Source: Henriciella sp. (GTDB taxonomy: Bacteria; Pseudomonadota; Alphaproteobacteria; Caulobacterales; Hyphomonadaceae). Taken from it: a stretch of 64,000 nucleotides of DNA. The position numbers and the translations under genes were made by a program. Of the stretch, positions 40,753-41,971 are shown piece by piece. Under the pieces are notes generated by a model. The model worked only from the letters and a program-made list of their open reading frames with translations. It did not search any database and was not told where the DNA came from. Location of the stretch: assembly GCA_021776655.1 (NCBI GenBank), contig JAJFFK010000002.1, positions 1 through 64,000 on the forward strand, read 5' to 3'. Position 1 is the first letter of the stretch. Each line of letters opens with the position of its first letter.

Positions 40753-40842
40753 ACAGCCCTGAGCTTGGTTCATCGGACGAGCGTAGCGAGGATCGGGAAC
40801 CCGCTTCGCCTCGCTGCGCCGAAGGCGCTTAGCGCGAGGCAA
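40753..40842. repeat. Dispersed composite repeat, copy B
   Basis: acagccctgagcttggttcat...ggaacccgcttcgc...gaaggcgcttagcgcg(a/g)ggcaa, shared with 58093-58169. Confidence 0.7.
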
Positions 40843-40880
40843 AAAAAGAAAACCCCGGCTGCGATATACGCGCCGGGGCT
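40841..40880 (-). terminator. Rho-independent terminator (minus strand)
   Basis: CCCCGGCgcgtatatcgcaGCCGGGGttttcttttttt. Confidence 0.8.
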
Positions 40881-40955
40881 AGAGTTTGGTTCTGTCTTGG
40901 GGGAGGAAACGCCCAATCGGAGGATTGATCGGGCTGTGCCCAGAACCTAAACACG
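40841..40955 (-). ncRNA. Candidate intergenic small RNA with anti-Shine-Dalgarno (CCUCC) loop
   Basis: Outer stem GGTTCTG/CAGAACC, hairpin GCCCGATC-aatcctcc-GATTGGGC, unpaired TTTCCTCCCCC, terminator CCCCGGC-N12-GCCGGGG + TTTTCTTTTTTT (minus strand). Confidence 0.55.
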
Positions 40956-40998
40956 AGCCTCATATGGCCCCCTCACGCCAGGAATCAACATGTATGTT

Positions 40999-41023
40999 TG
41001 CAGAAAATGCATGCATTTTTGCA
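40999..41023. promoter_or_regulatory. AT-rich palindrome TGCAgAAAATGCATGCATTTTTGCA
   Basis: Perfect AAAATGCATGCATTTT core flanked by TGCA/TGCA with one bulged G. Confidence 0.55.
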
Positions 41024-41068
41024 TACGCGGCGGCGTGTCGCACCCAAGTCCCGGTATTGCTATCGCCT

Positions 41069-41971
41069 TTATCGCAAAGGTGAGTTCCGGAACGCTTCGA
41101 CTTCCGTGGTTAAAAAGTCGCGAAACGCTGATATTCGTTTGGATCTCCGCAGGTCACTTGGATAGATGAAATAGAGATCGAAGCTCGGTCCGCTTTGATC
41201 TTCCAGCACTTTCACCAGCTGCGAATTGGTCCCAACCATATAGTCGGGTAGATCAGCCACCCCGAGACCCGCCTCGACGGCGCGCAGCATGGCTGAGACA
41301 TTATTGACTGTCAGAGCCGCTTCGCGTGGGCCGGTATCATCGCGGCCGACGCGTTCGGCAAAACTCATCGCAGTGATTGGACTATTCGTCGTGCCATAGG
41401 AAATGATGCGGTGATTATCCAGATCCTGCGGCGTGCGCGGCAGGCCGTGCGCCTTCAAATAGGCGGGCGACGCATACAGGCTGGTGCCAACTGTCGCGAG
41501 TTTACGCTGGATCAAATCGGCCTTGTCAGCGGCCCATAACCGGATGGCGCATTCCGCCTCGAGCTTGAGCAAGTCATAACTCTCACCATCATCCAGACGC
41601 AGGTCGATCCGCATATCCGCATGTTGGCGGGTAAAGTTGCCTAGCCGTGGCACCAGCCAGGTTGACCCGAACGCAACCGGCGCGGTGACTCTAAGCTGGC
41701 CCTGGGGCACATCTTGCTGATCGCGCAGCGCCGCACTCGCCCCTTGCGCGGCTGCCGACATGTCAATCGTCGAGCGGTGCAGGGTGTGGCCGCTATCGGT
41801 CAGAACCAGGCCACGGGCATGACGCTGAAACAGGGAGACGTCTAGCTGTTCTTCCAAAGCGGCGATCTGGCGCGAGACCGCCGATTGCGATATCCCCAGT
41901 CGCTCACCTGCAGCGGTCAGGCTGCCTGCTTCTGCAGCAGCATGAAATGATTTCAGCTTATCCCAGTCCAT
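41069..41971 (-). CDS. LysR family transcriptional regulator
   Basis: MDWDKLKSFHAAAEAGSLTAAGERLGISQSAVSRQIAALEEQL. Confidence 0.95.
   Translation of the reverse strand: MDWDKLKSFHAAAEAGSLTAAGERLGISQSAVSRQIAALEEQLDVSLFQRHARGLVLTDSGHTLHRSTIDMSAAAQGASAALRDQQDVPQGQLRVTAPVAFGSTWLVPRLGNFTRQHADMRIDLRLDDGESYDLLKLEAECAIRLWAADKADLIQRKLATVGTSLYASPAYLKAHGLPRTPQDLDNHRIISYGTTNSPITAMSFAERVGRDDTGPREAALTVNNVSAMLRAVEAGLGVADLPDYMVGTNSQLVKVLEDQSGPSFDLYFIYPSDLRRSKRISAFRDFLTTEVEAFRNSPLR

Follow-up and report, generated by a model that had tools for sequence, protein, structure and literature searches.

A conserved small RNA gene behind a VtlR/LsrB ortholog in marine Hyphomonadaceae, with a predicted role in the control of transport mRNAs

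Results

The short gap behind a LysR-type regulator gene of Henriciella sp. contains, on the minus strand, a small RNA (sRNA) gene that sequence comparison identifies as a real and conserved gene of marine Hyphomonadaceae, presumably transcribed from a promoter of its own. The regulator is the local ortholog of VtlR/LsrB. By analogy with known systems, we propose that VtlR activates the sRNA and that the sRNA represses the translation of transport mRNAs through two anti-Shine-Dalgarno (anti-SD) motifs, a reading to which we give a probability of roughly 0.7. The conserved RNA structure and motifs, the fixed synteny, the fixed operator position and the orthology of the regulator were all computed directly.

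A structured RNA with two exposed anti-SD motifs

The window is the whole stretch of DNA that was analysed, 64,000 nt at the start of contig JAJFFK010000002.1. A preliminary description, made from the letters of the window, had proposed an sRNA missing from the annotation, one that exposes CCUCC motifs, ends in a terminator of its own and has a palindrome upstream. Each element that it listed was found where it had been placed, and the proposal is supported by family matches, covariation and operator position (Table 1).

The RNA from 40954 to 40841 folds at -48.3 kcal/mol, compared to -29.3 kcal/mol for dinucleotide shuffles (z = -5.4; 0 of 200 shuffles folded as well), and a longer minus-strand stretch around it gave the same result. 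The fold has a closing stem and a hairpin with the CCUCC loop; GUUUCCUCCC is left unpaired, and a terminator completes the RNA. We built a covariance model from 14 well-aligned sequences, and 62 fetched sequences were matched and aligned with it. In this alignment, 92.6% of the cells pair, and two-sided changes occur at 18 of 25 pairs, in all three helices. Two-sided cells number 125; shuffles gave 27, and slid partners no more than 15. These counts lean upward, since the sequences share descent and their alignment was fitted to the structure; the slid controls still fail clearly. The preliminary description had asked whether relatives keep the stems and the CCUCC loop, and they do: the loop motif is found in 59 of the 62 sequences, the GUUUCCUCCC core of the second motif in every one, and all three helices covary. 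That the gap merely holds chance inverted repeats with no RNA product is scarcely credible when set against the covariation, the family-wide conservation and the invariant motifs.

An extra 5′ hairpin also covaries (30 two-sided cells versus 9). Its arms, broadly of the GUGUU/GGCAC type, are GUGUU/GACAC in the Henriciella clade and AUGCC/GGCAU in Hyphomonas. Because the 5′ strand of the closing stem makes up the loop of this hairpin, the sRNA may form a pseudoknot or switch between alternative folds.

We also considered a small-protein gene in the same region and rejected it. The short overlapping reading frames are not conserved, and loop lengths differ by single bases between relatives. A 44-aa minus-strand frame has its ATG inside the -10 element, and most relatives lack this ATG (CATATACCC).

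Table 1. Features of the sRNA locus, in window coordinates
Feature	Position	Strand	Remarks
vtlR/lsrB ortholog, LysR-type regulator	41069..41971	-	directly upstream of the sRNA, co-oriented
Predicted VtlR operator ATGCAAAAATGCAT, ATGC-N6-GCAT palindrome	41011..41024	-	fixed position in relatives
Degenerate second half-site, candidate activation site	40990..41003	-	lies 21 bp downstream of the operator; relatives show it clearly (TTGCGGACATGCAT, CTGCTGTGTCGCAT), the window only weakly
-35-like element GTTGAT	40984..40989	-	17-nt spacer to the -10 element; GTTG kept in most nearer relatives
-10 element CATATG	40961..40966	-	CATATA or CTATCTA in relatives; fixed conserved position; consensus resemblance only
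sRNA gene	40841..40954	-	predicted length ~107-114 nt; 5′ end placed by the -10 element, 3′ end by the T-tract
Closing stem, 5′ strand GGTTCTG	40941..40947	-	pairs with 40888-40894; two-sided changes at 6/7 pairs; 96% paired (62 sequences)
Hairpin GCCCGATC-AATCCTCC-GATTGGGC, anti-SD motif 1 in the loop	40911..40934	-	arms 40927-40934 / 40911-40918; two-sided changes at 4/8 pairs; 90.7% paired
Anti-SD motif 1, loop AAUCCUCC	40919..40926	-	CCTCC (CCUCC) in 59/62 aligned sequences
Anti-SD motif 2, UUUCCUCCCCC	40899..40909	-	mostly unpaired in the predicted fold; GTTTCCTCCC in 62/62
Closing stem, 3′ strand CAGAACC	40888..40894	-	covariation analysis
Intrinsic terminator hairpin and T-tract	40841..40880 (about)	-	two-sided changes at 8/10 pairs

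Distribution and synteny within the family

The covariance model matches 101 of 105 Hyphomonadaceae genomes at E<=1e-3, with about 80 strong and essentially single-copy matches; among the 105, one genus had none and another only weak, suhB-like ones. A 156-nt DNA query found matches in 33 of 61 relatives, and a search of named genomes for the exact core produced 52 matches, nearly all in Henriciella, Hyphomonas and other Hyphomonadaceae. The conserved parts are evident in an alignment of 30 loci. A LysR gene lies directly upstream on the same strand, 85-116 nt away, at all 57 loci with enough sequence, and the gene downstream of the sRNA varies. On the downstream side, a long imperfect inverted repeat (cctcgctgcgccgaaggcgcttagcgcgagg; 40780-40842) separates the sRNA terminator from ttcA; it may be a repeat element or serve as the terminator of ttcA.

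The neighbouring regulator is a VtlR/LsrB ortholog

Compared with protein structures, the LysR product matches PDB 9HH1, the LsrB structure of Agrobacterium tumefaciens (PMC11975290), at 252.9 bits, and the next-best structure reaches 102.9 bits. Other alphaproteobacterial families with hits mostly have one ortholog per genome at 45-52% identity, with paralogs at 37% or less. A TrxB reading frame directly precedes vtlR in 26 of 29 orthologs fetched from the class, and this trxB-vtlR gene order is a published hallmark (PMC7486931); in the window, trxB does not adjoin lysR. Because of the structural match, the single ortholog per genome and the trxB linkage within the class, we assign the window gene, on sequence grounds, as the VtlR/LsrB ortholog. 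LsrB has been stated to be unique to Rhizobiales (PMC11975290), a statement that the class-wide and mostly trxB-linked orthologs, as assigned here, contradict.

The window regulator has a single cysteine, C141, which aligns with C144 of LsrB and is present in 30 of 30 family sequences, and it has no counterpart of C273. A redox switch between C144 and C273, as has been proposed, therefore cannot work in this regulator.

A predicted operator at a fixed distance from the sRNA

The preliminary description had noted a palindrome at 40999-41023. The repeat is there, but what relatives conserve is the overlapping ATGCATTTTTGCAT at 41011-41024 and not the full 25 bp, and the element is better read as the predicted operator of the adjacent regulator. 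At 57 of 60 loci (52 of them with the strict form) it is placed at -77 to -79 relative to the closing stem, with its centre near -64 from the predicted sRNA start. LysR-type activators usually recognise their sites at a position matching this one.

Taken alone, the pattern is common. A whole-genome scan for further VtlR sites found ATGC-N6-GCAT 16 times, a number not separable from chance, and the window holds 1 occurrence where 1.2 are expected; therefore, a function is suggested only by the conserved position. The VtlR/LsrB box has been published as GCAT-N3-TG-N3-T and spans -61 to -49 (PabcR1) or -72 to -57 (PnfeR1) (PMC8844928, PMC10746234). The operator core GCA-N4-TG agrees with this box, while the T at position 4 and the final T of the box are not conserved. 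In one relative, a ATGCAAATATGC-like half palindrome stands upstream of a canonical suhB copy, on the opposite strand, as a possible second VtlR target.

A strict sigma70 consensus scan returned no promoter, and the promoter in the window resembles the consensus only weakly. Of the TTGATT-N18-TATGAG promoter suggested earlier, TTGATT is present at 40983-40988, but the conserved elements fit GTTGAT-N17-CATATG better.

The palindrome could instead terminate lysR or serve as some other DNA site, which would leave the sRNA a constitutive anti-SD RNA independent of VtlR. A simple scan did call it terminator-like in the window. Its arms are only 4-5 bp, though, and in relatives no T-run follows it; its distance is fixed to the sRNA and not to the lysR stop, and it recurs behind vtlR in 27 families. 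We consider this reading improbable. An origin from the 3′ UTR of lysR is slightly easier to entertain and still unlikely. In that case, RNase E would release the sRNA from the lysR mRNA, with no need for a promoter or operator, and the distance of only 85-116 nt on the same strand at every locus would suit such processing. There is a precedent in SorX (RF02784) of Rhodobacter sphaeroides, a CCUCCC sRNA that RNase E releases from the ompR-1 3′ UTR (PMC8625941). Against this origin, the palindrome and the -10 and -35-like elements are kept at fixed spacing between the lysR stop and the sRNA while the surrounding bases vary, and AbcR1, the related sRNA linked to vtlR, is transcribed from an LsrB-dependent promoter of its own. 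We thus retain the reading of a free-standing, VtlR-activated gene.

A conserved RNA behind vtlR across the class

We found a comparable arrangement outside the family. Behind vtlR in 45 other families, ATGC-N5-7-GCAT is present in 27 (0.7 expected in shuffles), CCTCCCTG in 30 and both in 22. The RNA found there consists of ACGUCUCCCAGACGUGAAGCCUCCCUGUU and a terminator; it is nearly invariant across 20 aligned families, and its terminator covaries. This CGTCTCCCAGACGTGAAGCCTCCCTGTT RNA lies ~150-300 nt behind vtlR and is present in 136 of 289 class genomes. Since it stands directly downstream in 36 of 56 orthologs from other alphaproteobacterial families, the regulator-sRNA pairing looks class-wide. 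Against Rfam, the class-wide RNA reached no gathering score, the closest family being SorX (RF02784; 38.7 of 46.6 bits).

A model of the class-wide RNA matched some Hyphomonadaceae sRNAs in the right place (at most 19.5 bits), scored canonical suhB higher (25.5 bits) and gave no match to the window sRNA. A common superfamily is therefore plausible; direct descent would be a step beyond these matches. We lean towards a view in which VtlR paired with an anti-SD sRNA is an ancient module common to all Alphaproteobacteria, with the CGUCUCCCAGACGUGAAGCCUCCCUGUU RNA as the ancestral or commonest partner; lineages would have exchanged the RNA (AbcR in Rhizobiales, an RNA with a suhB-like core in Hyphomonadaceae) and kept the regulator and operator. 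The class-wide RNA makes the ancestral role of VtlR testable, as sRNA-mediated control of nutrient uptake versus redox sensing or virulence.

Candidate targets and proposed mechanism

We searched for target candidates by pattern, assigning gene names from translated starts. The full complement of the second anti-SD motif, GGGAGGAAAC, occurs at the Shine-Dalgarno site of TonB-dependent receptors in several Henriciella genomes and of amtB in one relative; in the window's own genome, one TonB receptor has GGGAGGAAA at this site. Several further matches turned out to be transposase ends or other CGUUUCCUCCC loci read in antisense. Each genome has such other CGUUUCCUCCC loci, and the motif is common to suhB-like RNAs there; the candidate targets are therefore not assignable to the window sRNA alone and may be shared. 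Separately, GCGTTTCCTCCC sites recur 2-8 times per genus genome, versus ~0 for the reversed pattern (for example, C2:162110 and C17:15666 in the window's own genome). One of them is just upstream of a reading frame with what we take to be a PspA-like start, and the others resemble separate suhB-like RNAs.

In the proposed mechanism, the short gap behind vtlR would hold a free-standing sRNA gene with a promoter of its own. Transcription is most likely activated by the neighbouring VtlR/LsrB ortholog through binding to the ATGC-N6-GCAT palindrome near -64. The CCUCC loop and the GUUUCCUCCC linker would then pair, perhaps with the use of Hfq, with the ribosome-binding sites of several mRNAs and block their translation. 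From the AbcR1 precedent, such a block, and with it a negative direction of regulation, should be expected of the window sRNA. Its targets are probably nutrient-uptake genes, such as those for TonB-dependent receptors and ammonium transporters.

The VtlR/LsrB-sRNA switch is known for virulence and symbiosis in Rhizobiales. Our reading would extend it to free-living marine bacteria and provide a conserved regulatory RNA family proper to the Hyphomonadaceae; Rfam release 15 contains none. In the papers searched, there was no work on Hyphomonas sRNAs.

Comparison with known systems

No Rfam family reached its gathering score, either in the window or in any of 18 relatives. When the thresholds were relaxed, anti-hemB (18.7 bits) and suhB/mmgR (18.2 bits) came out best on the minus strand of the window. 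The sRNA, judged by sequence, thus belongs to no curated Rfam family; it is new to Rfam and of a known kind, the anti-SD sRNAs linked to VtlR/LsrB. The likeness to alpha-r14 and cuckoo/CcsR RNAs put forward in the preliminary description did not hold, and the nearest relatives are instead AbcR1, in position and promoter, and suhB/mmgR, in the sequence core.

The suhB/mmgR RNAs (RF00519, including SuhB of Sphingopyxis granuli) likewise have a small hairpin, an exposed CCUCCC and a terminator. Their consensus shares an identical 16-nt core, UUGGGCGUUUCCUCCC, with the window sRNA, in which the suhB core GGGCGUUUCCUCCC follows a short hairpin. One could accordingly take the sRNA for a suhB/mmgR (alpha-r8) member that lies behind lysR by chance and answers to carbon or nitrogen status and not to VtlR; the shared core and the 26-30 bits that its family members score with RF00519 would fit. 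Nevertheless, every score stays below the gathering score of 41 bits, and most same-genus relatives carry canonical suhB at separate loci (~40-54 bits), above or just under it. In the window's own genome, the search for canonical suhB gave nothing above 25.7 bits, which may reflect a loss or a filter effect. The window sRNA also differs from suhB in its CCUCC apical loop, closing stem, 5′ hairpin, separate locus and lysR-linked promoter, and it comes with the operator and the lysR synteny. Membership in suhB/mmgR is, in our judgement, a poor prospect, and we keep to a VtlR-activated sRNA.

SorX is also a CCUCCC sRNA, directed against a polyamine transporter mRNA, but it comes from the ompR-1 3′ UTR, and its model was not among the window matches up to E 10. 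NfeR1 (alpha-r14) is likewise activated by LsrB (PMC10746234), and it shares exposed CCUCC-type anti-SD motifs with CcsR1-4 (the cuckoo RNAs) and with the window sRNA. NfeR1 has three hairpins, each with CCUCCUCCC, whereas the window sRNA has two shorter motifs, CCUCC and UUUCCUCCC; CCUCCUCCC, the mark of alpha-r14, is absent from it. The CcsR1 model (RF02791) gave only 12.2 bits, on the opposite strand at 40996-41059, which does not place the sRNA among the CcsR RNAs.

The closest parallel is offered by AbcR1 and AbcR2 (alpha-r15, RF02345) of Agrobacterium, Sinorhizobium and Brucella. Sequence homology with the window sRNA was not detectable: the ar15 model gave no window match up to E 10, and none in the window's own genome and 114 other genomes of the class; this search was positive nowhere and is hence weak as a negative. 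In Rhizobiales, VtlR/LsrB directly activates AbcR1 and other anti-SD sRNAs. AbcR1 carries anti-SD motifs in a hairpin loop and in the linker between stems, has an LsrB-dependent promoter and represses transport mRNAs. In both systems the sRNA gene directly follows the vtlR/lsrB ortholog, and the RNA has two anti-SD motifs, the first in the loop of a hairpin and the second in the linker that precedes the terminator. The predicted operator of the window sRNA stands ahead of the promoter, where LysR-type activators usually bind and where the AbcR1 box also lies, with the core of the published box but not all of its positions. They differ in that the AbcR genes are in tandem, whereas the window sRNA is a single copy with a fuller operator palindrome and with trxB not adjacent. 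We do not assign the sRNA to ar15, suhB, SorX, alpha-r14 or CcsR; by analogy, it would work like AbcR1.
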